IMG/VR virus record: IMGVR_UViG_3300042301_002266
Location: 21,826 to 85,825 of that record
DNA length: 64,000 nucleotides
Strand: one strand, 5' to 3'
From: a virus
Shown here: piece by piece, positions 7,436 through 57,572 of the stretch
Numbering within the stretch: the first letter of the stretch is position 1
Layout: every line of letters starts with the position of its first letter
Position numbers and translations under genes: made by a program
The notes under the pieces: model-generated
What the model saw: only the letters and a program-made list of their open reading frames with translations
What the model was told of the DNA's origin: nothing
Databases searched by the model: none

Positions 7436-7971
7436 TGGCATCTAAATACTTTACATCAAGAGCTAAAGCTTCAAAGAAGATAACTCCTGCAGGATCAAGC
7501 AAGGTTTTTAATGATCCAAATGTTGATGAAAAATACAAAGAAGTTATTAATCAATTTCAAATGTCTCTTATAAAAAGCGGTGAAGGGTTATTAAATACAT
7601 TTACTGCTAGTACTGTAAACTCTATTCCAGAATCAATTATTCCAGCGAATGATAGTATAACTAGGCTAAATGATAGAACTATTCCACAGGCATTTGCAGC
7701 AGCAACTGCACAGGTTAGTATAACTAAAAACCAATACCTTGAAAAAATAAATATAATCACAAGGTCTATAGAATCATTGGTAAAGTTTGGTAAAAGTAAT
7801 AAGGCTTCCCTGATTGACTATTTTGGTAAGATAGATACAGCTTCGGGAACCTTTTACCCAACAATTATAAAATATGATGCTGAGGGTAATCCTGTGTACG
7901 ATATGAGGGTATCTATTGGCAATACCATAGGTGAAATAGAAGCTGAAGTTAGGACAGAACATGTATCCTAA
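7435..7971 (+). CDS. Tail-associated protein, unknown
   Basis: 178 residues from ATG 7435, which overlaps the previous stop (TAATG) and has AGGGAG just upstream; the in-frame GTG at 7426 is less likely. The protein is mostly helical, with Lys-rich N-terminal MASKYFTSRAKASKK and no recognised motif. It lies within the tail gene run, probably a small tail-tip or fibre-connector component. Confidence 0.75.
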   Translation: MASKYFTSRAKASKKITPAGSSKVFNDPNVDEKYKEVINQFQMSLIKSGEGLLNTFTASTVNSIPESIIPANDSITRLNDRTIPQAFAAATAQVSITKNQYLEKINIITRSIESLVKFGKSNKASLIDYFGKIDTASGTFYPTIIKYDAEGNPVYDMRVSIGNTIGEIEAEVRTEHVS

Positions 7972-7979
7972 TAAGGTGG

Positions 7980-7985
7980 TAAAAT
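7980..7985 (+). promoter_or_regulatory. Candidate leaderless -10 box
   Basis: TAAAAT ends 8 bases before the ATG at 7994. The purine-rich AAGGTGGT at 7973 is too far from the ATG for normal ribosome binding. The arrangement and sequence resemble the element at 39774. No good -35 is visible, so this is tentative. Confidence 0.4.
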
Positions 7986-7993
7986 AGTATATT

Positions 7994-8932
7994 ATGAGAG
8001 GTTTTTATAGAATTTATAAGGGAGACACTCTTGTATGTGAACAAGATAATGCTTTAACAGTAGTTGGAAGATCCCTTATCCTTAAAAGTTTGCTAGGTCT
8101 TATTCCTTCAGTGGGAGGATCTATTGCTATTGGAGTTGACAGTCAAGCAAATCCAGCACTAAATGCCAATAAGTTAATTGACCTAAATACAATGGGGTTT
8201 TCAATTGGTCAATCCCCAGTACAACTTGCAACATTAAATAGAACAGATAATGTTGATGCCTTAATTTTTAAAACAACAATTAACGACCCGTTAAAATACA
8301 CAATCTATGAGGTTGGTCTTTATCCAGAAGCTATACAAAATCAGATTATTCAATTTTCAGATTTACTTTTATTTAATGGAGAAAGCGATGATGGCTGGAC
8401 GGAGGGAGTAGAAGAACTATCATCAAAAACAACTGGATCAAGAATGATTTCAGAAAACATTGCCAATGGCACATACAGGATTGGAAACGAAGCAGTATAC
8501 ATAGATGCTGGATCAACAGTCTTTAGTACCGTATTTTCTAAAAACTTTACAGACTTTAGCGATAAAGATTTACTTAAACTAGCAGTTGACCCAACAGGTA
8601 CAAGTGGAACTTTATTAATTAAGTTTGAAACAAATGATACAAACTTTTATTCAAAAACTTTTACAATAGCCTCTGGAGGATATCAAATATTAAATTGTGC
8701 AAAAGATGAAATCCTGGCAACTGGAGCACCTTCATGGGCAAACATAAATAAGATATCAATCACAATGACATCAACTGGATTGGTTCTTGATGGAATTAAA
8801 TTTGATGATACAGATAACGTAGATGTAAACTACGGATTAATTTCTAGAACAGCACTTGCAACACCTATTCAAAAATCAGCAGGAGAGCCTATTACAATTG
8901 AATATTACTTAGTTTTAGGATTTAATGAATAA
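7994..8932 (+). CDS. Tail/baseplate structural protein
   Basis: 312 residues. The N-terminus (MRGFYRIYKGD) is followed by a region with repeated 'NALTVVGRSLILKSLLG' and 'YTIYEVGLYP' features that resemble fibre-attachment domains of T4-like and actinophage tail proteins. A jelly-roll-like central domain spans residues about 140-270. The stop overlaps the next ATG (TAATGG). Its role is inferred from position among tail genes. Confidence 0.75.
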   Translation: MRGFYRIYKGDTLVCEQDNALTVVGRSLILKSLLGLIPSVGGSIAIGVDSQANPALNANKLIDLNTMGFSIGQSPVQLATLNRTDNVDALIFKTTINDPLKYTIYEVGLYPEAIQNQIIQFSDLLLFNGESDDGWTEGVEELSSKTTGSRMISENIANGTYRIGNEAVYIDAGSTVFSTVFSKNFTDFSDKDLLKLAVDPTGTSGTLLIKFETNDTNFYSKTFTIASGGYQILNCAKDEILATGAPSWANINKISITMTSTGLVLDGIKFDDTDNVDVNYGLISRTALATPIQKSAGEPITIEYYLVLGFNE

Positions 8933-9768
8933 TGGATATTACAATACCAAACTTAAAACCAGGAAAACATAGAGTTCTTTTAAAATACTCTGATCCATTT
9001 TCTGTAACAGATTCTTCATTTAGTAGAGCTTTGTTTATTGAAACACCAAAAGCTCCACCACTTATTTCTAATCCAGAATTTGCACCTATAGTGACAAAAA
9101 AAGTTGTAAAGAAACAAATAACACGAACATACAATGATACTGTTAGATATAGACAAAGATCAAAAAATGTAGTTACTTTATGGACTACCGCAAATCACGG
9201 TCTTAAAAAAGGAAACAGGATAACTGTATCTGGAATGAATGGAACCGCAGCAGCAAACTTAAATGCAAGTCATGTAGTTACAACCGTACCAAATTCAAAA
9301 ATGATTAAGTTTAATAGAAAAGGTACAACTTTTGCTAAAGCTGCAGACACTGGCACCATATCTTTATCTGAAACACTAAGTGTTCCAGACTATTTTATAA
9401 TTAAAACATTTCTTCCAAATAATCTTAAAAATACTTTAGAGTGGACCTCTACTTTAAGAGATGTCGTTTTCTTTTTATGGGAAGAAGATGACAACCCTGG
9501 AGAGCTTTATTATTTAGATTCAGACATATCAAATGGATCAACAGAATTTACCACGACACCCCCAGCATATCCTGTAGGCATAACTAGAAAAAGAGCCAAT
9601 GCTGAAACTAGAATTGAGTCTGGAAATTATAAGTTTAGATATGTTATAGTTAGATACTATAAAAATTCTTCAGGATCTTGGGTTGGATATTTTCCAATGC
9701 TTTTAGGAGATTCTGTAAGTGTATCATCAATTGACGATATTATAGTATCAGCAGCAGGAGTAGCATAA
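8932..9768 (+). CDS. Tail protein with FCCH-like beta module
   Basis: 278 residues. Residues about 75-125 carry a module (VTLWTTANHGLKKGNRITV ... NLNASHVVTTV) that recurs in the genes at 9768 and 43223 and resembles the E1_FCCH domain seen in phage tail proteins. The remainder is beta-rich without active-site residues. It overlaps both neighbours by one base, indicating translational coupling in the tail operon. Confidence 0.75.
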   Translation: MDITIPNLKPGKHRVLLKYSDPFSVTDSSFSRALFIETPKAPPLISNPEFAPIVTKKVVKKQITRTYNDTVRYRQRSKNVVTLWTTANHGLKKGNRITVSGMNGTAAANLNASHVVTTVPNSKMIKFNRKGTTFAKAADTGTISLSETLSVPDYFIIKTFLPNNLKNTLEWTSTLRDVVFFLWEEDDNPGELYYLDSDISNGSTEFTTTPPAYPVGITRKRANAETRIESGNYKFRYVIVRYYKNSSGSWVGYFPMLLGDSVSVSSIDDIIVSAAGVA

Positions 9769-12700
9769 TGACTAATCAAACACAGGACTCTTTAAGCTCT
9801 CCACAATCTAGCTACTTAGAAGCAATTTTTGACCCTTTTGATGGATCATCCAAATTACTTTCAACAATTTCTTCTGCAAACTTTAACGGGGCAATCCCAG
9901 ACTTAGTTATACAATATCCAGATGCCGTAACAGATGACTTAATTCCAGGAAGATTTTTCTTAATAACAGATACCTATTATTTAATTACTAGGGTTGATGA
10001 AAATATTGATCCCATAACAACTGATACCATATCTTATAATGTTTGGTATACAGCAGGTGGAGTAGAAAGATATAAAACTATTTTAAACGGTGTAAAGATA
10101 TTTACAGACGGAACTGAGCTTCAAATTAGAAAAGATGATTGGGACAATAAATCCATAGGCTCTTCTGGATGGACAATAACTACAGAAGGAAACTCGGTAT
10201 TTTCAAATGTTGCTGTAAGAGGAACCATTGAAGCAACAGATGGTTACTTTGATGGGTTTTTAGTAATTGGTGATCCAAATGATCCAGAATTCCCAGGATC
10301 TATGAAAATTGGAACAAACGTAAATAGTACAAATGATGGTATTTATATTAATGCAAACAACTACTGGTATGATAATGGATTGTTCAAGGTTGGTAATGCT
10401 ACAAAGAATGTTACCTGGAACAATAATGACTTATCAGTAACTGGAGACATAAATGCTACTGGTGGAGTTTTCCAAGGAAAAATTCAAATAGGTAGCATGT
10501 TTCTTGGAGTAGATGCTTCGCCAACATTAGAAAATGGTATCTATATCGATGGAACAAATTATTGGTATGACGATGGAAACTTTTCGCTGGGAACGGGAAC
10601 AAACACTATTTCCTTTAATGGGTCTAATATTGTTGTAGGAACTGGTGTTAACATTGCTGGTGAAATTAGTGCTAACTCATTGCTTCTTACAAATGGTAGC
10701 TTTAGTATGTCTATTAAATCAAACCATACTCCAATCACATCTTCTATAAGAAATATAACAAAAGTAATTTTATCTGGAACATCTCCTCAATTAGCAGAGT
10801 TTACAACATCATCATCTCATCCTTTTGTAGAAGGAGACTTTATTTATGTTTCGGGTTTAAGTAATAGTGGTGGTGGACTGGGATCATTAAACAAAGTTTT
10901 TCAGGTATCTAGTGTAAGCTCAAATACGATAAATGTAAATGCAAGTAGTTCAACAAAAGTGGTAACTGTTAATGCGGATATTACAGATACAACACTATCT
11001 GTAATATCTTCAACTGGAGTTTTTGCAGGTATGGCTGTGTCTGGAACTGGAATACCACCTGGCACTACAGTAGTAAGTACAACCGCAACAGTAATAACAA
11101 TATCGAATGATACAACACAAGCATTGTCTGATGCTCCAATTACTTTTTCTCCAATAAATGGTACATATGATTCTACTGATACAGGATGGACCAATGGACA
11201 AGCAGAATTATCTTATGATGGAATTTATGTAAATCAACACAACTACTGGTATAGCAATGGTTTATTTGGAATTGGTGATGGAACCAAAGGACTAACTTGG
11301 AATGGATCAGCACTAAACGTAACTGGAGTTATTAACGCCTCAGCTGGTGGAACTATGGCAGGATGGGAAATTGGAACAGATGAAATCTTTAAAGGAACTG
11401 GATCATCAAAGATTGCATTAAATGCAGGTGCAAACCCTAAAATATATATAGGTTCAGGATTTCACTCTAGTGCAGGTACAGGATTCTATGTAGATTCAAC
11501 AGGTAAGTTTTCATTGTCAAACCTACTTACTTTTAGTCCAAGTGTTGATATTCCAGAAGCTACTACTACAGGAACATTTAATAGTGGAACAAATACAATA
11601 ACTGTGACTAGTGCATCTGGAATTGTAAGAGGCATGACGGTTCTTGGAACTGGCATAGCATCAAACTCAACAGTAACTAATATATCTGGAACAACAATTA
11701 CTACTAGCAATAATGCAATTGCAAATGGTACAGGAGTTTCTTTAACATTTATTCTTGATGATTTCTCAGAACTTCAAGTAAATGGAAGAATTAAGGGCGT
11801 TTTAGAATCAACAAGCTCAATTGTAACACCAAGGCTTGCTACCACCGCAACCTCTGTGGTAGTTTCAGGATCTGTAGGATCTCAAATTGCAACAATAACA
11901 ACAACAGGTCATGCATTTATTACAGGTGAAAAGATATTAATTGAAAATCTTCCAGCAACTAATGGATTAAATAATCTTAACAGAGAGTTTGCTATTTTAT
12001 CAATTACTGATAGTATAACACTTGTAATAAGTTTATCAGGTATAACTGGAGTAACTAGCTCAACAAATACCAGCCTAACAGGATCAATAACTTTAAGAGA
12101 ACTCACAATGGGTCTTCATCCCGCTCAAGGCACAGAATCGTATGCACATAACGCTGGAACAGGAATTAGGCTCGATAAGTTTAACTGGTGGTTTACAAAT
12201 AATCAATTTAGAGTTGGCTCAGTAGATTCATATATTAAATGGACAACAGATCCTACCCCACTCCTTGACGTGGTTGGTCAAATTAGGGCTACCTCAGGGT
12301 ATTTAGGTGGGACTGAAGATGGATGGTTAATAGAAACTGGTGTTATTAAGTCTAGTGGTTCTGGAAGTCCAGACTCTCAAGTGCACCTAGAATCTGGAAA
12401 CAATGATAACAATCCAAAAATTTATATTGGACCAGACGGTGGTCAGTGGAATGATATAGATACTCCATTTTATGTAAATTCACAAGGAGAATTTTCGGTT
12501 GGTTCTGGAGACTCTTCTTTAACTTATGAGCCAGGAATTGGTGGTAAAGGTTTAATTACGGTAACTGGTAAAGTTCAGGCATCTGCTGGATATATTGGAG
12601 GCAAGGCTCTTGGATGGCAGTTTGGAAGCAACGGAATTCTACAAACTGGAGAAGGAGCAGGAAGACTGGCTCTAGCATCATCCGTAACACAGTTTTCTGG

Positions 12701-14483
12701 TGGATTGGCATCGATTAATATTCAAAGAATTATTGTTGATGATGAGTTTGAAGACTATGAAGAAAATTTTGCTTCTCTTTACGTTACGGTAGCAACATCA
12801 GGTTTTTCTGCAGGGCTGCAAGCACAATTGCCAGATATATTATTTGACACAATTATGAAATTTGATTTTCAGTTACTTCCAACAAGCAACTTAAAAACAC
12901 TTTTGGATGGAAAGAGCATCCCAGTTACTGATGTTCTTGAACAACAAAGAGTATTTTTTGTAAAAGAAATAGATAATTATGATCCAGATGGTGGTTTTCC
13001 AGAAATAAGTTCGCCACAAGCTGCTGTAGATATTTATCCAGTATATGGATCTGCAACAACAACCCAGCTTTTCTTATATTTTACAGAAATATTTACAGAT
13101 GATGAGTTTACAACTTCTACTGGAGGTTTAGCAGTAGGTAATACCGTTGTGCTTGAATCAGGGGTGCTTCCTGGAGTAGCAGCTGGAAACTATGTAATTG
13201 CAGGAATTGGAACACAAGACCTTGATGAAGGAGTAATTTTATATGGAGAGCCTGATGAGTACAATGCAAGATTTGGAAGGCTTACCTTAACAAGAAGTGG
13301 AAGTGCAATATCTTTACAGGAAACGGGTGAAGGGGGTCTTACCCTGTTAGATACTCCTGGATACTATACGCTAGTGTTTTACCCAGAAGACTCTGGCATT
13401 ATTGTTCACGATTCAGGCACAGAAGGATTTTATTCTTACACCACAACAAAGCCAAAATTATCATTTTATGATGAATTGGCAGAAGTTCTTACATCAGATG
13501 GATACTATTACATGTGGGCAGGTGCAGATGATCCAGATCTAGCTTCATTTGCAATTAAAAAGTCCAATGCCGTGGGAGCAGATAATCTTACAATTCAGAA
13601 TAAATCTTTGGGTCAAAGTTACGCATCCCAAGCATTAGAAACAACATTTGCTCCGTTTACAGCAAAAGCAACTGGAATATCAGGATCTAGTTTTGTTCCA
13701 ATGGTAAAATCAAGAGTAGGTGGTGCAACAAAAACAAGAATATCTGTTTTAGGACAAATACATAACACAGATAACACAATTCATACAGTATTACATAATT
13801 TAAATAGCAGTGGAACAGAAGATCATAAATTCTATTTTAGAAATGATGGAATTTTACAAGCACCAGAATTTTTAGGAAAGGGTGCTGTTCCAGTAGGATC
13901 TATTGTTATGTGGTATACAGCAACACCACCTACAGGATGGTTATTGTGTAATGGTCAAGCAGTTGATTCAGGATTGTATCCATCACTTCGTGCAATAATG
14001 GCAACAACACCAGACCTAAGAGGAAGATTCCCAGTAGGATCTGGTGGAACTACGGGGGAGGTTGTAGCCAATCTTGGAACGATAGGTGGTGCTGTTAGTG
14101 CAACATACACAACTGTAACAGCACACTCACATACACTTAATGCATTTAACGTAAGCATTACAGAAGGAACAATTGCTACTAATAATACAAACCACAGCCA
14201 CGGCGTAGTTGGTAACTCTTCTATTGCAGGAAATACCGATGCTGGCTCAAGAGGAATTAGCGGAACAACTATTTTAACTCCTACTGTTAACCACGCTCAC
14301 GGAGACGGAAACTATGGAACAACTTCTGCAGGTGGAACAGATGACACAGATCATAGCCATGGCATTAATGCATTTACTGGTTCTATTACAGAGGGAACAA
14401 ACGATAATAATACGGCAGCAACATCTACAGTTGCAACAGTTCCACCATATGTTGCTGTAAACTTTATTATTTATGCAGGATAG
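9768..14483 (+). CDS. Large repeat-containing tail fibre with collar domain
   Basis: 1571 residues. Five diverged repeats of a GIYIDGTNYWYDDGNFSLG type unit (codons about 185, 255, 480, 800 and 900) build a fibre shaft. Two FCCH-like modules (near codons 340 and 700) and two 'GMAVSGTGIPPGT' type modules are interleaved. The C-terminus has a phage collar domain (GSIVMWYTATPPTGWLLCNG, near codon 1376) and four His-x-His motifs ending in a short beta tip. Such tips in T4-like fibres bind metal in a receptor-binding needle. A host-adhesion role is inferred. Confidence 0.88.
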   Translation: MTNQTQDSLSSPQSSYLEAIFDPFDGSSKLLSTISSANFNGAIPDLVIQYPDAVTDDLIPGRFFLITDTYYLITRVDENIDPITTDTISYNVWYTAGGVERYKTILNGVKIFTDGTELQIRKDDWDNKSIGSSGWTITTEGNSVFSNVAVRGTIEATDGYFDGFLVIGDPNDPEFPGSMKIGTNVNSTNDGIYINANNYWYDNGLFKVGNATKNVTWNNNDLSVTGDINATGGVFQGKIQIGSMFLGVDASPTLENGIYIDGTNYWYDDGNFSLGTGTNTISFNGSNIVVGTGVNIAGEISANSLLLTNGSFSMSIKSNHTPITSSIRNITKVILSGTSPQLAEFTTSSSHPFVEGDFIYVSGLSNSGGGLGSLNKVFQVSSVSSNTINVNASSSTKVVTVNADITDTTLSVISSTGVFAGMAVSGTGIPPGTTVVSTTATVITISNDTTQALSDAPITFSPINGTYDSTDTGWTNGQAELSYDGIYVNQHNYWYSNGLFGIGDGTKGLTWNGSALNVTGVINASAGGTMAGWEIGTDEIFKGTGSSKIALNAGANPKIYIGSGFHSSAGTGFYVDSTGKFSLSNLLTFSPSVDIPEATTTGTFNSGTNTITVTSASGIVRGMTVLGTGIASNSTVTNISGTTITTSNNAIANGTGVSLTFILDDFSELQVNGRIKGVLESTSSIVTPRLATTATSVVVSGSVGSQIATITTTGHAFITGEKILIENLPATNGLNNLNREFAILSITDSITLVISLSGITGVTSSTNTSLTGSITLRELTMGLHPAQGTESYAHNAGTGIRLDKFNWWFTNNQFRVGSVDSYIKWTTDPTPLLDVVGQIRATSGYLGGTEDGWLIETGVIKSSGSGSPDSQVHLESGNNDNNPKIYIGPDGGQWNDIDTPFYVNSQGEFSVGSGDSSLTYEPGIGGKGLITVTGKVQASAGYIGGKALGWQFGSNGILQTGEGAGRLALASSVTQFSGGLASINIQRIIVDDEFEDYEENFASLYVTVATSGFSAGLQAQLPDILFDTIMKFDFQLLPTSNLKTLLDGKSIPVTDVLEQQRVFFVKEIDNYDPDGGFPEISSPQAAVDIYPVYGSATTTQLFLYFTEIFTDDEFTTSTGGLAVGNTVVLESGVLPGVAAGNYVIAGIGTQDLDEGVILYGEPDEYNARFGRLTLTRSGSAISLQETGEGGLTLLDTPGYYTLVFYPEDSGIIVHDSGTEGFYSYTTTKPKLSFYDELAEVLTSDGYYYMWAGADDPDLASFAIKKSNAVGADNLTIQNKSLGQSYASQALETTFAPFTAKATGISGSSFVPMVKSRVGGATKTRISVLGQIHNTDNTIHTVLHNLNSSGTEDHKFYFRNDGILQAPEFLGKGAVPVGSIVMWYTATPPTGWLLCNGQAVDSGLYPSLRAIMATTPDLRGRFPVGSGGTTGEVVANLGTIGGAVSATYTTVTAHSHTLNAFNVSITEGTIATNNTNHSHGVVGNSSIAGNTDAGSRGISGTTILTPTVNHAHGDGNYGTTSAGGTDDTDHSHGINAFTGSITEGTNDNNTAATSTVATVPPYVAVNFIIYAG

Positions 14484-14492
14484 GAGGAAAAA

Positions 14493-14717
14493 ATGAATAA
14501 AGAAGATAAGTTATTATTTTTAAACAAACAGTTAGAATTTAATAATTCAGAAAAAGAAACTTACTACGGTATTTTTAATTATTTTGAAGGAGTACCACAT
14601 GAAGATATTCCATGGTTTTATCTTGACTTTAACCAAGTAAAGGATCAAATAATTGAATCTTTAGAGTCAAAACACGTTTGGCTACAAGAAAGAATTCAAG
14701 AAATAGAAGCAGAATAA
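14493..14717 (+). CDS. Small acidic protein, unknown
   Basis: 74 residues with a strong AGGAGG ribosome site just upstream. It is helical and acidic, ending in a likely coiled coil (QIIESLESKHVWLQERIQEIEAE). It immediately follows the fibre gene and might be a fibre chaperone or assembly factor, but nothing in the sequence proves this. Confidence 0.7.
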   Translation: MNKEDKLLFLNKQLEFNNSEKETYYGIFNYFEGVPHEDIPWFYLDFNQVKDQIIESLESKHVWLQERIQEIEAE

Positions 14718-14721
14718 AGGG

Positions 14722-14750
14722 TTGCAGAAACACTTTATAAATGATATAAT
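14722..14750 (+). promoter_or_regulatory. Sigma70-type promoter TTGCAG-N17-TATAAT
   Basis: A -35 TTGCAG at 14722-14727 and a -10 TATAAT at 14745-14750 with a 17-base spacer; the -10 is extended (TGATATAAT). It drives the 54-residue gene at 14775 and probably the genes beyond it. Confidence 0.75.
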
Positions 14751-14774
14751 GTACAAGAGACAAAGGAGACAGTA

Positions 14775-14939
14775 ATGTCAAAAACACTGGAACTAGTAGT
14801 ACAAGAACTGCAAAGCAGAATTGGACAAATGACTAGTAATTATGAAACACAAATGGCTGTGCTTAAGGCACAAGCAACAGAGGCACTTGAGGCAAAGGAT
14901 GCAGAAATTGCAAGTCTCAAGGAATCTAAAGGAGAATAA
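14775..14939 (+). CDS. 54-residue coiled-coil protein
   Basis: ATG with AAAGGAG upstream. The sequence is heptad-like throughout (LELVVQELQSRIGQM, EALEAKDAEIASLKE), a predicted coiled coil. It has its own strong promoter and is followed at once by another structural-type gene. Function unknown; it may trimerise or chaperone the fibre. Confidence 0.7.
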   Translation: MSKTLELVVQELQSRIGQMTSNYETQMAVLKAQATEALEAKDAEIASLKESKGE

Positions 14940-14944
14940 ATTTA

Positions 14945-15403
14945 ATGGCAGCACAACTAAGTGACGGACAACCAATTACTTTTGAGTGGTTGAATAGTCT
15001 TGTGTCTGAAATTAATACCTTGCAATCACAACTTGCAGCTAACACTAAAGCAGATGCAGAGAACAGGGCAAGACCAATTACATATGCTGGAGATGCAATA
15101 GCCTCTGCAGGTAAAATTAAAGTAATTGCTGATCAACAAAAAATTGGTGATGCTAGAAAATCTAAAGCAGCATTTAATGCATACGTTGACTTCCCTGGAA
15201 ATGGTTTTAAAGATGCAAGTGTAATTGTTGTTGCTACTGCAGATATGCGTAAGAACAAAACATCAGCAGAGCAACTTGCTGTATCAGTAGCTAATGTTAC
15301 AAAAAATGGTTTTACATGTACAGTTACTCCAATTGACGGTGAATCGCTAAAAGCAGGACAGGATGTAATTATTAATTACATTGCGGTTGGGGATGCTCCA
15401 TAA
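14945..15403 (+). CDS. Putative virion/fibre-associated protein
   Basis: 152 residues. The N-terminus is a short coiled coil (FEWLNSLVSEINTLQSQLA) followed by a beta-rich domain with VDFPGNGFKDASVIVVATA and DVIINYIAVGDAP, similar to C-terminal beta domains in phage fibre proteins. Coupled to the upstream coiled-coil gene. Receptor binding or decoration is possible but not demonstrated. Confidence 0.65.
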   Translation: MAAQLSDGQPITFEWLNSLVSEINTLQSQLAANTKADAENRARPITYAGDAIASAGKIKVIADQQKIGDARKSKAAFNAYVDFPGNGFKDASVIVVATADMRKNKTSAEQLAVSVANVTKNGFTCTVTPIDGESLKAGQDVIINYIAVGDAP

Positions 15404-15869
15404 AATACTAAATGGTTATGTTTTGGTAAAAGAGCCAAAACATCCAAAAGCCTTGCATGGAGGCTGGTATTTTGAGCACGTTATAAATATAGAAAAAGAA
15501 CTTGGAAGATACTTAAAAGAGTATGAATCCGTTCACCATATAAATGAAATAAAAACAGATAACAGAACAGATAATCTTTTTGTTTGTCATAGGGAAGAGC
15601 ATGATAAAGCTCACGGAATGAAAAATGTATCCTTATACAGAATGCATGAAACTTGGGTTGGAAAACAATGTGAGTCCTGTGGCAAAACATTTTATGGCAC
15701 ACCAAGTGTTATGAAAAAAAGAAAAAGATGTAACTCTATGTGCAAATCTAAAAAAACTATTGATAAAATTTGCTCACACTGTTACACTAGTTACACTATA
15801 CCTGCATCTGCAGATAAGCACTACAAGTATTGCTCTAAGGTTTGTCGCCTTAGAGCCAAAGCTGCGTAA
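15393..15869 (+). CDS. HNH endonuclease
   Basis: 158 residues from ATG 15393, overlapping the preceding gene by 11 bases (an in-frame TTG at 15381 is an alternative). The HNH core VHHINEIKTDNRTDNL is followed by an EH near residue 75, and three CxxC-type pairs (CESCGKTF, CNSMC, CSHCY, YCSKVC) give a zinc-finger tail for DNA binding. Such free-standing HNH genes in phages are usually homing endonucleases. Its overlap with a structural gene suggests insertion. Moderate-high confidence. Confidence 0.85.
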   Translation: MLHKILNGYVLVKEPKHPKALHGGWYFEHVINIEKELGRYLKEYESVHHINEIKTDNRTDNLFVCHREEHDKAHGMKNVSLYRMHETWVGKQCESCGKTFYGTPSVMKKRKRCNSMCKSKKTIDKICSHCYTSYTIPASADKHYKYCSKVCRLRAKAA

Positions 15870-15884
15870 ACAGAAAGGTTTACA

Positions 15885-16694
15885 ATGACAAACGATTTAA
15901 AGTGGATGATATCATCCGATCAGCAATTCCCATATCAAGATGATAAAATGATTGAGTTATGGTTTAAGGTAATGAGATGGTTTAAGCCAGACGTTGTTGA
16001 TTACTTAGGTGATACTGACGATCAGGCTTGCTATAGCAAGTACACAGAAGGACGGTCAGCAGAGTTTTTAAAGATGCACAAGGATAACAATGGCGATGCT
16101 ATTGTTCCTCTTATGAAGCATGAAGCAAAACTAGCAAGAGATTTCTACACTAAGACACGCAAGGTTGCTAAAAATGCACAGCTATTTTCTGCACTTGGAA
16201 ATCATGATATTCGTGTGTTTGATTATGTAGATGCAAAGTTACCAGATTATATTGAAGTAACTACACCAGAAAGTTTGTGGAACCTGGATAGTCTTGGATA
16301 TGATTACATCTATTACAACCAACCACCTGCTCATAGGTTTGGAGATATTCACGTTCATCATGGTAACGCTATTTCACAAAATGCAGGTGAGTCAGTTCGT
16401 AAAGATGTAGATAACTTTGGCGTATCTTTAATTCGTGGACACTCTCATCGTGCAGGTGTATACTTTAATACCTATGAACTTAGAAACGGTGGTAAGGGTG
16501 AAACCTTACGAGGTTATGAGATTGGTCATATGTGTGATGAAAAATCTACAGGAATGATGTATACAAATAATCATAACTGGCAGAAAGCATTTGCTATTGC
16601 TCACATTGAAAATGGTAATTATCCACACATTCAACTAGTTCATGTATCACCAGACTACTCTTGTATCGTTGATGGAAAGATGTTTAAAGTATAA
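15885..16694 (+). CDS. Calcineurin-like metallophosphoesterase
   Basis: 269 residues. Metal-site motifs are in order: SSDQQF near residue 10, YLGDTDD near 43, ALGNHD near 105, HVHHGN near 158 and RGHSHR near 185. The usual first D-x-H is D-x-Q (DQQ) here, so one metal ligand may differ. Phage members of this family act on phosphodiesters or DNA ends; the substrate is unknown. Its position starts the replication region. Confidence 0.88.
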   Translation: MTNDLKWMISSDQQFPYQDDKMIELWFKVMRWFKPDVVDYLGDTDDQACYSKYTEGRSAEFLKMHKDNNGDAIVPLMKHEAKLARDFYTKTRKVAKNAQLFSALGNHDIRVFDYVDAKLPDYIEVTTPESLWNLDSLGYDYIYYNQPPAHRFGDIHVHHGNAISQNAGESVRKDVDNFGVSLIRGHSHRAGVYFNTYELRNGGKGETLRGYEIGHMCDEKSTGMMYTNNHNWQKAFAIAHIENGNYPHIQLVHVSPDYSCIVDGKMFKV

Positions 16695-16702
16695 CTTTAC
16701 GC

Positions 16703-16708
16703 TATAAT
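16703..16708 (+). promoter_or_regulatory. -10 box of leaderless promoter
   Basis: TATAAT ends six bases before the ATG at 16715, so transcription would start at or next to the start codon. No ribosome site is present upstream of that ATG. A clear -35 is not visible. Confidence 0.6.
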
Positions 16709-16714
16709 TTAACA

Positions 16715-16927
16715 ATGTGGTGTAAAGTATGCAATGGCAGGGTGCTTGTTGATAGAGTTTTTAGTTCTGAAACACATATAGAATTATATTGTTTTACATG
16801 TGGAAAAAGATGGATCTTTAATCACCCCCAAAATAGAGGAAGTTTTGCAGTATGGATATGGAAAAAAGAAAGAGAAGTCCTAAAGCTTTCAGCGATGGGC
16901 AGTTGGTCAAGAAAAACCACAATTTAA
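16715..16927 (+). CDS. Zinc-ribbon protein
   Basis: 70 residues. Two Cys pairs (CKVCNG near residue 3 and CFTCGKRW near 27) form a zinc ribbon, with an aromatic-basic segment after it. Probably nucleic-acid binding. Translation would be leaderless. Its 3' part overlaps the next gene by 76 bases in another frame. Confidence 0.65.
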   Translation: MWCKVCNGRVLVDRVFSSETHIELYCFTCGKRWIFNHPQNRGSFAVWIWKKEREVLKLSAMGSWSRKTTI

Positions 16928-17394
16928 TATTCTTTCTTAATGGAGAATTACATAGGGTTGTTAGGACTAATGCCTCTGCAAACATTTGCCACGCACTTAA
17001 CTATAATCAAAACAAGATAGTTAAATATACTTACAGTGACTACAAGAAGTTTAGAAAGCCAGCATTTAGAATCGGTGAGGTAGCCAGTATTCTAAAAAGA
17101 CATGAAGATAGAATTAGAAGAGCCATTTGGAACCTAGATGTTTCCAGACCATTTATTGTAGAGTATGAAAATAGAAGTGGCGTATATTACTTTTCTGAAG
17201 AAAACATTTATGAGTTAAGAGAATTCTTTGCAAATGTTCATCGTGGCAGACCAAGAAAAGATGGCATAGTTGTATCAAAGAATGTCCCAACGGTATCTGA
17301 GATAGATGCTGTACTGGGCAAGAAACCAATTTTATATATGAGAACGAAAGAAGGAAACTTTGTTCCAGTTTGGAGTGCTGAAGAATATGAGTAA
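16852..17394 (+). CDS. Putative DNA-binding protein with winged HTH
   Basis: 180 residues. Residues about 65-110 (FRIGEVASILKRHEDRIRRA and later YYFSEENIYELREFF) resemble a MerR-type helix-turn-helix, with a basic N-terminus (MEKRKRSPK). An ATG at 16858 is an alternative start. It is probably a regulator or replication accessory factor; no phage regulator is specifically recognised. Confidence 0.7.
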   Translation: MDMEKRKRSPKAFSDGQLVKKNHNLIFFLNGELHRVVRTNASANICHALNYNQNKIVKYTYSDYKKFRKPAFRIGEVASILKRHEDRIRRAIWNLDVSRPFIVEYENRSGVYYFSEENIYELREFFANVHRGRPRKDGIVVSKNVPTVSEIDAVLGKKPILYMRTKEGNFVPVWSAEEYE

Positions 17395-17707
17395 ACATAA
17401 GAAGAAAAACAAAGACAAAGAAGAAGTGTTGACAATAACTCAAGACTATGCAATAATTAACGCAGCAAGCTCTTTACTATACGCTGAGGAACTAGCAAGA
17501 CTAAATGCAGATACTGAAATGCTATTAGCAATATCAGATAGATGGCTTAATGTCTCTAAGGTTCTTGTACTTGAAGAAGAGTTTTCTAGGAACAAAGCAT
17601 TTGGCTTTGTTGGATCAATGGAAGAAAGTGAATTAAATGGAGAAATCGGTACAGAAAGATCTGACACGGGTAAAGGTAGATCTAAAGTTCGTAAAAAATC
17701 TAGGTAA
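17387..17707 (+). CDS. Hypothetical protein, charged ends
   Basis: 106 residues from ATG 17387, overlapping the previous stop. The N-terminus is very basic (MSKHKKKNKDKEE), the middle is helical (YAEELARLNADTEML), and the C-terminus is basic (GKGRSKVRKKSR). It sits upstream of the helicase in a tight operon. No domain recognised. Confidence 0.7.
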   Translation: MSKHKKKNKDKEEVLTITQDYAIINAASSLLYAEELARLNADTEMLLAISDRWLNVSKVLVLEEEFSRNKAFGFVGSMEESELNGEIGTERSDTGKGRSKVRKKSR

Positions 17708-25008: not shown

Positions 25009-25287
25009 ATGAAAATAAGAGGATATCTTCTAGAAGGAGTAAATGAAGAATTACTACTTGTAATTAGAGGATACGATGAAGAGCAAATGTATTCTATTAT
25101 TAAAAAATTAGAATCTATGCGTGATCAAGAAGTAAAAGAATTAGCGGAAGTATTGGAGAATCATTTAAATGACCGAATTAGCAATGGAAGAAATTCTGTC
25201 AAAGCTAGACCCCAAAACAAGAAAAAGGGTTCAGGCAGCAACAGAAGTAGAAATAGAAAAACAATCAACACCAAGCCTCAGTCTTAA
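25009..25287 (+). CDS. Hypothetical protein overlapping recA
   Basis: 92 residues. A helical N-terminal half (LLEGVNEELLLVIRGYDEEQM) is followed by a basic low-complexity tail (KARPQNKKKGSGSNRSRNRK) encoded in the 119-base overlap with recA. The tail may be the secondary reading of a recA frame. Leaderless start. Function unknown. Confidence 0.6.
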   Translation: MKIRGYLLEGVNEELLLVIRGYDEEQMYSIIKKLESMRDQEVKELAEVLENHLNDRISNGRNSVKARPQNKKKGSGSNRSRNRKTINTKPQS

Positions 25288-26176
25288 CGTTGGACTAAAG
25301 GGTGGTTTTGGATATGGACGGCAGATCCTAGTATGGGGAAACAAGTCTGCTGGTAAATCATCTTTTTGTTTACAGATGATTGGTGAAGCACAAAAAGCTG
25401 GAAAGACATGTGCGTGGATTGACTCTGAAGCATCATACTCTCCAGAGTGGGCAGAAAAACTAGGAGTAGATTCTAGCAAGTTAATTTACTCTTCTGCTAA
25501 AACAATTAATGACATGGTAGACGTTTCAGTAGACTTAATGAAAGCTGGAGTAGACATTCTTGTTGTTGATTCAATTTCTGCATTACTTCCTGCTATCTAT
25601 TTTGAAAAAGATGGTAACGAACTAAAAGACTTGCAGGATACTAAGCAAATTGGTGCAGAAGCAAAAGATATGACTCACGCAGTCAAAATGCTTAACTATG
25701 TAAATGAAAATACCTTGCTTGTTTTAATTTCACAGCAACGTAATAGTTTTGGTGGAATGCATGCAACTCACATCCCCACTGGTGGTATGGCTGTAAAGTT
25801 CTTTTCATCAACAATTGTAAAATTATGGTCATCAGAATCCGAAGCAAGTTCTATCAAAGACAAAGTATCTGTTGGAGATAGACTAATTGAACAGCGTGTT
25901 GGTCGTCCAGTAAATTGGACAATTGATTACAATAAGACAGGACCACAATTTATTAGTGGATCGTATGACTTCTATTTCCAGGGAGACCATGTTGGTGTAG
26001 ATAAGGTTGCAGACCTTGTTGATACAGCAGAGCTTATGGGAATCATTGAACGTGGTGGTGCTTGGTATACCGTACTAGACCAGAGACTGCAGGGTCGTGC
26101 AAAGGTTGTTGAGTATGTAAGAGAAAACCAAGAAGTGTTTGATACTTTAGAGTCACAGGTATATTCAAAGCTATGA
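25169..26176 (+). CDS. recA: RecA-like recombinase
   Basis: 335 residues; GGAGA precedes ATG 25169 (an ATG at 25184 is also possible). Walker A GNKSAGKSSF (residues 57-66), Walker B ILVVDSISAL (near 130), and an ISQQRNSFG / MAVKFFSS segment matching the RecA L2 and C-terminal core. Catalyses strand exchange for phage recombination-dependent replication. Followed by a zinc ribbon gene with an ATGA overlap. Confidence 0.92.
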   Translation: MTELAMEEILSKLDPKTRKRVQAATEVEIEKQSTPSLSLNVGLKGGFGYGRQILVWGNKSAGKSSFCLQMIGEAQKAGKTCAWIDSEASYSPEWAEKLGVDSSKLIYSSAKTINDMVDVSVDLMKAGVDILVVDSISALLPAIYFEKDGNELKDLQDTKQIGAEAKDMTHAVKMLNYVNENTLLVLISQQRNSFGGMHATHIPTGGMAVKFFSSTIVKLWSSESEASSIKDKVSVGDRLIEQRVGRPVNWTIDYNKTGPQFISGSYDFYFQGDHVGVDKVADLVDTAELMGIIERGGAWYTVLDQRLQGRAKVVEYVRENQEVFDTLESQVYSKL

Positions 26177-28586: not shown

Positions 28587-28747
28587 AGCTTTATAAGTCA
28601 AAATCATGGCTTACCAAGAGGTACGTTTTAGATAAAAAGACAATAGAAGAGATTGCAAAAGAATGCGAAACTAGTCACCAAACGATATACAGACATCTGG
28701 TAGAATATGGTTTAATCAAAAATCAAAGAACATGGAAAAAAAGATGA
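28583..28747 (+). CDS. 54-residue helix-turn-helix protein
   Basis: GTG start overlapping the previous stop (GTGA). The HTH is clear: YVLDKKTIEEIAKECETS followed by HQTIYRHLVEYGL, with a basic end (RTWKKR). DNA-binding regulators of this type lie beside RuvC genes in actinophages. Its stop overlaps the glycosyltransferase start (ATGA). Confidence 0.75.
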   Translation: MKLYKSKSWLTKRYVLDKKTIEEIAKECETSHQTIYRHLVEYGLIKNQRTWKKR

Positions 28748-29769
28748 AGTTAAATTTAACAGGAGTAAACCTTCATAAGGGATTTAAGAATCAGGATATG
28801 GGATATCCAACTGCTGCTGCAAACATGGCTCAGGGCTTTGTTGATAATGGATTTAAGATATCTAATTTTGATTTAAATTCTAAAGTTAATATCTCGTTTG
28901 CCACACCAAATCAACACATAATGTTTTCTGGAGCGTATAATATTTTATATTCTTCTCACGAAACAACAGAGATATCAGATTACTGGGCTGAGTGTTTGAA
29001 TAAGGGTGACGAAGTTTGGGCAGCATCAACATGGACTGCAGATGTATTCAGGAAAAAGGTTGATAAGCCAATCAATGTTTATCCTCATGGTGTGTCTGGA
29101 AAGTTTGTCCCAGCAAAAAGAAAACTAAGAGAAGATAAATTTTTCTTTTTACATACTGGAGAGCCTTATGTTCGTAAAGGTGGACAGGTAGCAGTTGAAG
29201 CTTTCTTAGAAGAGTTTGCAGACAACGAAGATGTAATTATGATTATCAAAGCCTATGATCGTGGTCATACAATTCTTGTTGATGATGGAACAGGAAAAAA
29301 AGTTGCACCAGAAGTAGCTTATAAGAATGTTAAAACAATTAAACAGTCTTTAGGATTTAATGACTATCTTAAGATGTTGCATAACACACATTGCCTTGTG
29401 TATCCGTCATGGGGTGAGGGGTTTGGAATGATGCCACTAGAAGCAATGGCAACGGGTCTACCAACAATTACAACTTGGGAATGGGCAGAATATAAAGACC
29501 TAATTGATTATAAGATTGATAGCACATTGTCTGATGTACCAGATGGCTTACCAGAATACCTTACAGACACTTATCTGGGAAAAATCTATCTTCCAGATAT
29601 TAACTCTATAAGATATAATATGAAACAGGTTTATGAAAACAAGGAAGAAGAGTTTAAGAAATCTTTTGACAAGTCTATTGAAGTACACAAACAATGGAAC
29701 TGGGAAGATATAACTGCTAAACATGCGGTACCAAGAATTAAAGAAATATATGGAGAGTTAAATGTTTGA
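28744..29769 (+). CDS. GT4-type glycosyltransferase
   Basis: 341 residues from ATG 28744; an ATG at 28732 is in frame. The C-terminal nucleotide-sugar domain has YPSWGEGFGMMPLEAMATG near residue 226 and the EX7E-type acidic pair of family GT4. The N-terminal half has PHGV and VRKGGQVAVEAF. It transfers a sugar from a nucleotide donor to an unknown acceptor, perhaps DNA or a cell-surface polymer. Its location in a DNA-metabolism operon is a little unexpected. Confidence 0.88.
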   Translation: MKLNLTGVNLHKGFKNQDMGYPTAAANMAQGFVDNGFKISNFDLNSKVNISFATPNQHIMFSGAYNILYSSHETTEISDYWAECLNKGDEVWAASTWTADVFRKKVDKPINVYPHGVSGKFVPAKRKLREDKFFFLHTGEPYVRKGGQVAVEAFLEEFADNEDVIMIIKAYDRGHTILVDDGTGKKVAPEVAYKNVKTIKQSLGFNDYLKMLHNTHCLVYPSWGEGFGMMPLEAMATGLPTITTWEWAEYKDLIDYKIDSTLSDVPDGLPEYLTDTYLGKIYLPDINSIRYNMKQVYENKEEEFKKSFDKSIEVHKQWNWEDITAKHAVPRIKEIYGELNV

Positions 29770-38916: not shown

Positions 38917-38990
38917 GGGGTGTTAGCTTAGTTGGTTAAAGCCCTGAACTCATAATTCAGTAATCGTTGGTTCAAGTCCAACACACCCTA
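38917..38990 (+). tRNA. tRNA with CAT anticodon (Met or Ile2)
   Basis: 74 bases. Acceptor GGGGTGT/ACACCCT, anticodon stem CTGAA/TTCAG with loop CTCATAA (CAT), T arm GTTGG/CCAAC. It is either elongator Met or lysidine-modified Ile2; the sequence alone does not decide. Confidence 0.88.
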
Positions 38991-39001
38991 CGTTAATGTA
39001 G

Positions 39002-39016: not shown

Positions 39017-39088
39017 GCCTCTTTAGCTCAGTGGTAGAGCAACGCTCTTGTAAAGCGTAGGTCTTCAGTTCAAGTCTGAAAAGGGGCT
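39017..39088 (+). tRNA. tRNA-Thr (TGT)
   Basis: 72 bases. Acceptor GCCTCTT/AAGGGGC (one G-U), anticodon stem CGCT/AGCG with loop CTTGTAA (TGT), T stem TTCAG/CTGAA. It reads ACA, a common codon here. Confidence 0.9.
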
Positions 39089-39091
39089 CTA

Positions 39092-39189
39092 GGTGGCAGG
39101 AAGTCGTCCTTAGTGATGGTTGATAGTTACAGTTACGAGTCCAGAGAGACACGTTTGCCAGTGTAGGTAAATAAGGTCTTCCTGTCACC
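39092..39189 (+). ncRNA. Putative structured RNA, 98 nt, between tRNA-Thr and thioredoxin
   Basis: Ends pair as a 12-bp stem GGTGGCAGGAAG/CTTCCTGTCACC (one G-U) extended by CCTTA/TAAGG after a small bulge. Internal hairpins include ACAC/GTGT (39149-39164). It has no ORF and sits directly 3' of a tRNA, probably on the same transcript. Not a tRNA, hammerhead or family I recognise. Candidate new phage RNA. Confidence 0.6.
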
Positions 39190-39210: not shown

Positions 39211-39504
39211 ATGAATATCGAAGAGTTTAATGAATTAGTTAAAGAAGGAACTACAATTGTAGATTTCTGGGCAGAGTGGTGTGGTCCATGTAAAATGGTT
39301 TCACCAGTACTAGATGAAATTGCACAAGAAACTGGATCAAAGCTAATTAAGATTGATGTAGACAATGAGCCAGAGTTAGCAAAAGAGTTTGGAATTTCTG
39401 GAATTCCAGCAATTATGATATATAATGATGGAGTAAGAACAAAATCAATTGTTGGTGCAAAACCAAAACCAGCTTTAAAGAAAGTACTATTTGACAATGT
39501 TTAA
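39211..39504 (+). CDS. trxA: Thioredoxin
   Basis: 97 residues with AAAAGGAG upstream. Active site WAEWCGPCK (Cys24, Cys27), the cis-Pro segment GISGIPAIMIY, and full thioredoxin length. Provides reducing power for phage ribonucleotide reduction or acts as a polymerase cofactor; the partner is not in view. Overlaps the next gene. Confidence 0.93.
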   Translation: MNIEEFNELVKEGTTIVDFWAEWCGPCKMVSPVLDEIAQETGSKLIKIDVDNEPELAKEFGISGIPAIMIYNDGVRTKSIVGAKPKPALKKVLFDNV

Positions 39505-51047: not shown

Positions 51048-51413
51048 ATGAAAATTTTAGTATATGGTACAGATACCTTTGATGACTATTCAACATTTAT
51101 GCGTGGTCTTATAGTTGCTATTGATGAAAATGCAAAGGGATCAGACGGTAAGATTGAGGTTTTTACCGCAGGTCCTAGAAAGATCAATAGTTATACTGCT
51201 GAGTTTATTAATAAGACTGAAGGATTCTTTAGACAAAAGAAAATTAGAACAAGATTTCGTAGAATACCTCGCTCAGAAGCTATTGAAAACTTTGAGTCCT
51301 ATGGGTTTGATCATGTATTATCATTTAACAATAAAAAAGATCCCAAATTCTTTGATGTTTTGATGGATAAGGCTGAAATTCTTAACATTAATTCGTCTTA
51401 CTACAAATATTAG
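51048..51413 (+). CDS. Small Rossmann-like protein
   Basis: 121 residues. The start MKILVYGTDTFDDYSTFMRG resembles nucleotide-binding Rossmann/SLOG-type proteins; a basic middle (KKIRTRFRRIPRSEA) and a C-terminal AEILNINSSYYKY follow. Function unknown. Confidence 0.65.
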   Translation: MKILVYGTDTFDDYSTFMRGLIVAIDENAKGSDGKIEVFTAGPRKINSYTAEFINKTEGFFRQKKIRTRFRRIPRSEAIENFESYGFDHVLSFNNKKDPKFFDVLMDKAEILNINSSYYKY

Positions 51414-55678: not shown

Positions 55679-56541
55679 GAATTTTAATTACGGGTCATAA
55701 AGGCTTTGTTGGTGGATACTTTATGCGTAAGTATAAAGACCACGATATTGTAGGTATTGATATCAAAGAAGGCAATGATTGCCGTGACTTCTTTAAAGAG
55801 GATGACTCATACTTTGATATGGTAATTCACCTTGCTGCAATTGTTGGGGGTAGAGTAACTATTGAAGGTAATCCCCTTTCTGTGGCAACAGACCTATCAA
55901 TTGATGCAGAGATGTTTAACTGGGCTATGCGTACAAGACCAGGCAGGGTTGTTTATTTTAGTTCTTCTGCTGCATATCCAACCAAGTTCCAAACTGGTGC
56001 AAATCCATTAAAGCTTTCAGAACAAATGCTAGACTTATATGCTGTATCAAACCCAGACTTAACTTATGGATGGGCAAAGCTTACAGGAGAATATCTTGCT
56101 AGGTTTGCACAAGAGGCAGGTATTCGCACACATATATTCCGTCCATTCTCAGGGTACGGTACAGACCAAGACCTTGACTATCCATTCCCATCTTATATTA
56201 CAAGAGCATTAAGACAAGATAACCCATTTGATATTTGGGGTGATGGACATCAGGTAAGAGACTTTATCCATATGCAAGACATTGTAGATGCAGTAGATAA
56301 AGCTATTGAATTAGATATTCCTGGTCCAGTTAATCTTGGTTCAGGAGAAGCAACATCATTTAGAGACTTAGCTAAACTTGTTTGTAAATTACAGGGCTAC
56401 TCTCCAGAATATAATTTTATTGAAACAGCACCAGTAGGTGTTACATATCGTGTTTCAGATCCAAGAAAAATGTTAAGTTTTTATAAGCCAAAGATTAGCC
56501 TTACTCAAGGAATTGTTAAGGCACTAGAAGGAAATATTTAA
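55675..56541 (+). CDS. NAD-dependent sugar-nucleotide epimerase/reductase
   Basis: 288 residues. GHKGFVGG dinucleotide motif near the start (residues 7-14), SSSAAYPTKF and YGWAKLTGE (catalytic Tyr/Lys near residue 139), and FRPFSGYG. Extended SDR of the GDP-fucose synthase/UDP-glucose epimerase group; the precise sugar is not fixed. Fits a nucleotide-sugar pathway with the neighbouring transferases. Confidence 0.88.
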   Translation: MRILITGHKGFVGGYFMRKYKDHDIVGIDIKEGNDCRDFFKEDDSYFDMVIHLAAIVGGRVTIEGNPLSVATDLSIDAEMFNWAMRTRPGRVVYFSSSAAYPTKFQTGANPLKLSEQMLDLYAVSNPDLTYGWAKLTGEYLARFAQEAGIRTHIFRPFSGYGTDQDLDYPFPSYITRALRQDNPFDIWGDGHQVRDFIHMQDIVDAVDKAIELDIPGPVNLGSGEATSFRDLAKLVCKLQGYSPEYNFIETAPVGVTYRVSDPRKMLSFYKPKISLTQGIVKALEGNI

Positions 56542-57572
56542 TGATAAAATTTAAAGATTCAAAACAGTTATGTTTTGATGACATACTTATGGTGCCACAG
56601 CACTCAGATATTGAAAGCAGAAAAGACGTAAGTCTCTCAATGATTATTGGGAATGATATTATTTTAGGTTTTCCAGTAATTGCTTCTCCAATGGACACTG
56701 TATGTGAATTAGACATGGCAGTTGCAATAGGAAAAAGTAGTGGCTTAGGAATCATTCATAGATTTATGGCAATAGAAGAGCAAGTAAAACAGGTTAAATC
56801 TGCTGCCACTGAACACAAAGTAATTGTTGGTGCTGCAGTTGGTGCAAAAGGATCTTACTTGCACGATGCAGAAAGACTTGTAGAGGCAGGGGCATCTGTA
56901 ATTCTTGTTGATACAGCAAATGGTCATAGTCAATATGCTATTGATGCAGTAAAAAACTTAAAAAAACTATTTAAAGATATCCACATTATGGCTGGAAACG
57001 TTTCTACTTATGAAGGCTTTAAAGCACTAGCAAAAGCAGGAGCTAATTCTATTCGTGTTGGAATTGGTGGTGGTTCTGTATGTACAACAAGACTGGTATC
57101 TGGTCATGGTATACCTACCCTTTCCTCAATTCTAGATATTGTTGAAATGAGAAACAAATCTAAGTATTCAAATGTAGCCATTATTGCTGATGGTGGTATC
57201 AAAACATCAGGTGACATGATTAAAGCCTTCTCAGCAGGTGCTGATGCCGTTATGTTAGGATCTATGCTTGCTGGTACAGATGAGTCTCCAGGTAGCGTAT
57301 TTATTGATGCAACTGGAAAGTACAAATCTTTTAGAGGTATGGCTAGTTTAGAAGCAAATCAGGGTAAAGATATTGCTGTATCTGAAGGGGTTTCAACAAG
57401 GGTTCCTTACAAAGGTTCTGTCTATAACATTATTAATGATATCAAGGGTGGCATGGGGTCTGGATGTTCTTATTCTGGAGTTCGTAATCTTTGTGAACTA
57501 TATGATAATGCAATGTATATTGAAGTTTCAAGCCTCTCGGTAAGTGAAAGCAAGCCACACGCTATTAAGTAG
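56541..57572 (+). CDS. IMP dehydrogenase/GMP reductase-like enzyme
   Basis: 343 residues. TIM-barrel oxidoreductase: [37 protein letters not shown] with catalytic Cys near residue 180, [14 protein letters not shown] and [12 protein letters not shown]. No CBS domains, so short like many phage copies. It could raise GMP/GTP for nucleotide sugars such as GDP-mannose or for DNA synthesis; IMPDH versus GMP reductase is not separable from sequence alone. Ends the operon. Confidence 0.88.

Follow-up and report, generated by a model that had tools for sequence, protein, structure and literature searches.

What is encoded, if anything, in the 98 bases that separate a tRNA-Thr gene from a thioredoxin gene in the virus record IMGVR_UViG_3300042301_002266? 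The DNA analyzed here, referred to as the window, comprises 64,000 nt of this record (positions 21,826–85,825). The stretch was originally predicted to be noncoding, to be closed by a 12-bp stem extended by five further pairs, and to represent a possible new structured RNA co-transcribed with the preceding tRNA.

The element and its relatives

The gene borders, together with the lack of any forward reading frame open throughout 39092–39189, confirmed the stretch as noncoding. The features of the locus are as follows:

38917–38991, + strand: tRNA-Met (CAT), in the same tRNA run as tRNA-Thr
39017–39089, + strand: tRNA-Thr (TGT), no CCA encoded, ending 2 nt upstream of the element
39092–39189, + strand: RNA element (98 nt), class I (unpermuted), identified by fold z score, homologues and family membership
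39092–39103, + strand: 5′ arm of the outer stem P1, GGTGGCAGGAAG, forming 12 pairs with 39178–39189 and covarying across the family
39109–39130, + strand: conserved core CTTAGTGATGGTTGATAGTTAC (family consensus CTTRG-n-GATGG-n-TAGTTAC)
39161–39166, + strand: second conserved segment GTGTAG, identified from alignments (family consensus GTGCAG or GTGC)
39178–39189, + strand: 3′ arm of the outer stem P1, CTTCCTGTCACC, supported by pairing with the 5′ arm and by covariation
39211–39504, + strand: thioredoxin gene (Pfam Thioredoxin, PF00085), the downstream neighbour of the element in the window subgroup only

The distance between the element and the thioredoxin start codon is 21 nt. Alignments showed that the second segment has T in the lineage of the window where most members have C. 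Folding of 39092–39189 gave −33.9 kcal/mol compared to −21.9 ± 2.9 kcal/mol for shuffled sequences (z −4.1), and none of 200 shuffles folded as well, in agreement with the predicted 12-bp stem, one pair of which is G-U. The five additional pairs were only partly borne out: CCTTA/TAAGG is present in the single-sequence fold, but since such an extension was hardly longer than in shuffles (mean 3.33 versus 3.15 for 83 elements; 3.54 versus 3.04 for the 54 elements not in one particular subgroup) it lacks support as a feature of the family at large. The idea that the outer stem continues into the core by way of its CUU was likewise rejected, as it was hardly above shuffles.

The first 18 bases of the element were found as an exact match in 16 IMG/VR contigs. 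A search with thioredoxin, which is independent of the RNA, yielded 248 loci, and among the best 80 of these a close copy of the element preceded thioredoxin in 15. A divergent element was found before thioredoxin in three further loci (L051–L053), and in L066, L068, and L077 an element was located elsewhere than before thioredoxin. Within the 15 close copies the core was invariant, and the 3′ part of the element varied in length and sequence. Other thioredoxin relatives contained empty sites, in which tRNA-Thr is followed directly by thioredoxin or by another gene, and the RNA therefore appears as a module that was gained or lost with clean borders. Phages related to the window with tRNA-Thr followed by thioredoxin and no RNA between them were observed at L025, L026, and L042–L046.

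Divergent members were found to have the motif CTTAG-n-GATGG-n-TAGTTAC in common. A slightly stricter motif scan detected at least 119 IMG/VR stretches, and additional scans detected 13, 49, 18, and 63 stretches in partly overlapping sets. A loosened motif gave 218 matches, counting duplicates and overlapping loci, which were tested for the outer stem; a stem score of at least 11 was reached by 199 of them versus 135 of 3000 positions drawn at random from these loci. Sixteen matches without a stem were dropped, which on reading were judged to be located at a contig end (seven), chance-like (five, several within coding sequence), odd or partial (three), or bacterial (one, L259). Two further matches with a stem score below 10 were also dropped, L015, in which the contig end cuts the element, and the bacterial contig L260. 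After removal of duplicates from the 200 matches kept, 117 distinct elements remained, so that at least 117 were gathered from IMG/VR phage contigs. Their length, as delimited by script, was 76–151 nt; 110 showed the class I order and seven were circularly permuted (class II). The covariance model R1 missed the element of the window itself, being too subgroup-specific, and its negative results thus say little.

Outer stem, conserved core and circular permutation

At the 11 innermost positions of the outer stem, the two arms of the same element formed 10.86 pairs on average over the 117 elements, with a minimum of nine. When arms were swapped between 11 sequence clusters, only 3.98 of 11 positions paired, and none of 9734 swaps reached 10 pairs. 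All four Watson-Crick types were found at each of the 11 positions across subgroups. Compensatory changes in this stem had been named beforehand as a test of the original prediction, and they were found: in an aligned subgroup of 24 members, eight of the 11 pairs change on both sides with the pairing kept, a count reached in none of 500 shuffles, and 99.6% of cells pair. Sliding the partners as a control reduced the pairing in this subgroup to 27–66%. Four of five covariation measures calculated from the same alignment were equalled by none of 500 shuffles; the fifth, further pair types, was reached by 366 of 500 and is not above chance. Ten members folded singly gave z scores from −2.9 to −7.3. 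RNAalifold applied to the 24-member subgroup found the outer stem alone, and inner helices beyond it are only weakly supported. As far as comparison of sequences can establish it, the putative outer stem was thus shown to be under selection for pairing and not for the bases themselves.

The core of the family reads CUU(A/G)G-n-GAUGG-n-UAGUUAC and is accompanied by a GUGC(AG) segment. Because the motif scans select for this core, its conservation among their matches is circular, and two sets collected independently of the core were used instead, the loci fetched with thioredoxin and a scan by stem arms only, which required the two arms of one outer stem with any 45–72 bases between them. GATGG-n-TAGTTAC was present in all 62 loci from the arm-only scan, which contain 37 distinct inner sequences. 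On reading, 39 of the 62 had the strict core and 23 had CTTGG instead of CTTAG with GATGG-nn-TAGTTAC kept. Selection on the internal core for its sequence was thereby shown, with the qualification that this too is deduced from sequence comparison.

In class I elements a stem arm is followed by CTTAGGATGG...TAGTTAC, one or more variable hairpins, GTGC(AG), and the other stem arm. In class II elements (L099, L104, L107, L124, L170, L175, and L195) the order is stem arm, hairpin, GTGCAG, a short loop, CTTAGGATGG...TAGTTACC, and stem arm; L104 has GTGTGG in place of GTGCAG. The same two core segments thus meet in both orders, which points to a core working as a three-dimensional unit.

Genomic addresses, carriers and hosts

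The proposal that the RNA is co-transcribed with a tRNA and processed from that transcript would apply to only part of the family. A tRNA on the same strand is abutted by 44 of the 117 distinct elements: 36 start within −3 to +2 nt of a tRNA 3′ end, 21 end within −3 to +6 nt of a tRNA 5′ end, and 13 have both borders at tRNAs. The other 73 do not abut a tRNA, and in 44 of these a −10-like hexamer was detected 4–10 nt upstream of the stem, compared to 3.8% of shuffled upstream sequence and two of the 44 tRNA-adjacent elements. The RNA therefore seems to be expressed in two ways, and wherever a tRNA precedes it or a −10 box is present, the transcript, which is inferred, would begin at the base of the stem. 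A second −10 hexamer within 60 nt downstream was found for 57 of the 73 elements away from tRNAs versus 11.6 in shuffles, which suggests a separate promoter for the gene that follows. In 14 of the 117, the stem is directly followed by a T run.

Neighbouring genes differed. The gene for the terminase large subunit lies just upstream of 31 of the 117 elements and an Hsp20-like gene precedes 33, whereas thioredoxin is next downstream of only 10; Pfam confirmed Hsp20 and thioredoxin in the examples tested. A cysteine-rich protein of about 91 aa is encoded downstream of 32 elements, starting about 20–50 nt after the RNA. That the elements occur at several unconnected places in the genome speaks against a cis-regulatory role for a neighbour, and as the RNA is not explained by any one neighbour, action in trans is most likely; borders formed by a tRNA or a −10 box at such unrelated addresses make a separate trans-acting RNA most likely. 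The protein of about 91 aa showed C..C...DH and C..CH patterns in class III loci (e.g., L112, L106, and L098). An HNH nuclease label given to it by eye was rejected, as Pfam gave only a sub-threshold match to an unrelated family.

Exactly one copy of the element was present in each of 30 RNA-bearing phage records tested whole, and the reversed-pattern control gave none. WhiB is encoded by 29 of these 30 records. Two publications describe WhiB as a marker of actinobacterial hosts for freshwater phages (PMC6802176; PMC10202952). The terminase of the window shares 61% identity with its counterpart in Streptomyces phages such as Gilson (Stanwilliamsviridae). WhiB and terminase similarity point to actinobacteria as the most likely hosts. 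Of 24 records related through thioredoxin, 20 encode WhiB and only one, an already known RNA carrier, contained the strict motif. The relaxed core was found in none of 24 records comprising the other 23 and Gilson, some of which are fragments, as many phage records are. Phages of this kind can thus do without the RNA, as many related ones lack it.

Among 84,980 bacterial and archaeal genomes, no match to CTTAGGATGGTNTAGTTAC was detected, and the looser CTTAGGATGGNNTAGTTAC gave two matches, one without a stem and the other with a weak, irregular stem. Thus, no convincing copy of a CTTAGGATGG-type core was found in these genomes; the scans did not cover CTTAGTGATGG..., the form present in the window, or two further variants. 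Seven blastn queries with different members against 50,697 named phages gave, among the matches listed, only tRNA or chance-like ones; divergent copies would escape such short queries.

A comparison of gene content between 10 RNA-bearing and nine RNA-free records (1015 clusters) was made without control for phylogeny and would miss small or fast-evolving partners. The best clusters were present in 9/10 versus 2/9 and then 7/10 versus 1/9 records, and no cluster absent from all nine RNA-free records occurred in more than five of the 10 RNA-bearing ones. A partner protein proposed by gene content was not convincing after multiple testing and was discarded. A protein of about 120 aa (L343, 12873–13235; about 51048–51410 in the window) was present in nine of the 10 RNA-bearing and two of the nine RNA-free records, and had no PHROG match at E 0.001. 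The window phage also encodes an IMP dehydrogenase/GMP reductase-domain protein, RecA, and a glycosyltransferase (56541–57572, 25169–26176, and 28732–29769).

Known RNAs and possible function

A match to a known Rfam family had been named in advance as an observation that would refute the prediction of a new RNA. None of the 4227 families of Rfam 15 matches the element: the window at gathering threshold gave tRNAs only, the element region gave no family match at E ≤ 10, and nine loci of other subgroups gave none on the element at E ≤ 1. ARAGORN and Rfam RF00005 recognized only the neighbours as tRNAs, as expected from the prediction that the element itself is not one. The reading as a new structured RNA is supported, and it extends to a family much larger than this single locus. 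Since neither in sequence nor in structure does a known RNA family match, we regard the family as new, although orphan small RNAs of phages as such are not without precedent. Among the listed titles and opening lines of abstracts, all from open-licence PubMed Central and without supplements, none described the motif, and an earlier description is possible.

Several functions other than the one we prefer have to be weighed. The next candidate is a base-pairing sRNA in which the invariant core segments would serve as seeds for host or phage RNAs. The anatomy of a discrete sRNA and a highly conserved core that is partly drawn unpaired would fit this, but the conserved segments are short, they are distributed over two or three separate sites, and their whole context is kept even under permutation, which leaves this explanation unlikely. 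More doubtful still is a novel class of self-cleaving ribozyme. Small ribozymes characteristically occur in circularly permuted forms that retain their core, and two permuted architectures with the same core are indeed found here; against this, no known Rfam model matches, and a selected closed stem of at least 11 bp seems to hold the ends together and not to release a product. We think no better of a cis-acting element (riboswitch, leader, or 3′ stabilizer) of the adjacent gene. The window copy lies close before the thioredoxin start codon, and the outer stem with a U run could end transcription in the 14 members that have one, but there is no consistent downstream gene, the neighbours differing by subgroup; −10 hexamers follow 57 of the 73 elements away from tRNAs, and in sister phages tRNA-Thr is followed immediately by thioredoxin, with no RNA between them.

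A role in processing or spacing within tRNA operons would account for the 44 elements that abut tRNAs, 13 of them between two tRNAs, but not for the 73 located elsewhere, 44 with their own −10 box, and is very unlikely. A packaging RNA working with terminase, suggested by the 31 elements just past the large subunit gene, is yet harder to defend: other subgroups are located elsewhere, the terminase family occurs in 16 of the 19 records compared and hence also in RNA-free ones, and a tRNA run following terminase in many of these phages and in Gilson explains the address. Y RNAs, partners of the Ro (TROVE) protein, were considered because Gilson, a relative infecting Streptomyces, is annotated with a Ro-like protein in its tRNA region. 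Y RNAs are about 100 nt long with paired ends, which the size and end-closed stem of the element resemble. TROVE (PF05731) was, however, found in none of the 30 RNA-bearing phage records, which largely refutes a phage-encoded Ro partner, Gilson lacks the relaxed core, and YrlA (RF02553) does not match the element; this explanation retains only the slightest probability.

The explanation we prefer, which in our judgement has an even chance of being correct, is that the element encodes, in phages of actinobacteria, a discrete and stable small RNA that acts in trans and whose core binds a host component, both the binding and the transcript being inferred. The RNA would either be released from a tRNA transcript when the tRNA ends are processed or be transcribed from a promoter of its own, and its closed ends may shield it from exonucleases. 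The core, displayed on a multi-helix junction, would bind a host component, most likely a protein, which may be sequestered or redirected during infection. The lack of a phage gene family restricted to RNA-bearing phages suggests a host component as target rather than a phage protein. A single copy, a near-invariant core, two permuted forms, and two modes of expression are what is expected of an RNA with a specific partner. More tentatively, and with less confidence than in the small RNA gene as such, we propose a new class of phage RNA that tolerates circular permutation around an invariant core and acts in trans on a conserved actinobacterial component; if this is true, phages of freshwater actinobacteria carry a dedicated RNA for host takeover or counter-defence. 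Actinobacteria are among the most abundant freshwater bacteria, and to our knowledge little is known about noncoding RNAs of their phages. With its 76–151 nt, the RNA is a defined object suitable for in vitro synthesis and for use as bait.

Among known systems, the species 1 and species 2 RNAs of T4 (rnaC and rnaD) are similarly small, stable phage RNAs in a tRNA cluster. The T4 rnaD starts 1 nt after tRNA-Arg, compared to 2 nt after tRNA-Thr for the window element, so that small phage RNAs within tRNA transcripts are a known situation. By the criterion of a tRNA on the same strand a few nucleotides away, the window element and 44 of the 117 elements belong to this kind. Homology to rnaC or rnaD was rejected, since the core is absent from both even when three substitutions are allowed and the predicted folds differ, rnaC ending in a T-arm-like hairpin. 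We know of no function established for the T4 species 1 and 2 RNAs, and the members in tRNA clusters reopen the old question of the role of such small stable phage RNAs.

The manA RNA (RF01745) is also a phage-borne structured RNA that can sit between tRNA genes; a relationship was rejected, since its model of 192 positions has a different consensus and no match on the element, and L052 contains both manA (2580–2764) and a family element, separately. Besides, GOLLD and ROOL are orphan structured RNAs tied to phages. They are often found near tRNAs and are several hundred nucleotides long; neither has an Rfam match on the element.

Two minor observations were made on other RNAs in tRNA regions. 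The manA copy in L052 sits between tRNA-Thr and tRNA-Asn with spacings of 6–7 and 0 nt and outside a 5′ UTR, and manA was above cut-off in four of 34 phage records searched, with a fifth below cut-off. A location between tRNAs and outside a 5′ UTR means that the cis-regulatory label may not fit these copies. In Gilson (L324), in which the Ro-like RNA-binding protein is annotated at 7831–9447, structured inserts were observed in the tRNA region at 5604–5760, 5837–6239, and 6929–7207. No Rfam family besides tRNA and tmRNA was detected in Gilson 3800–17400. Six GGGTCGGATG-like repeats, versus 1.0 expected, lie at the starts of the inserts, which by eye are roughly 75–150 nt long, some apparently within tRNA genes, and could be small introns or another RNA family.
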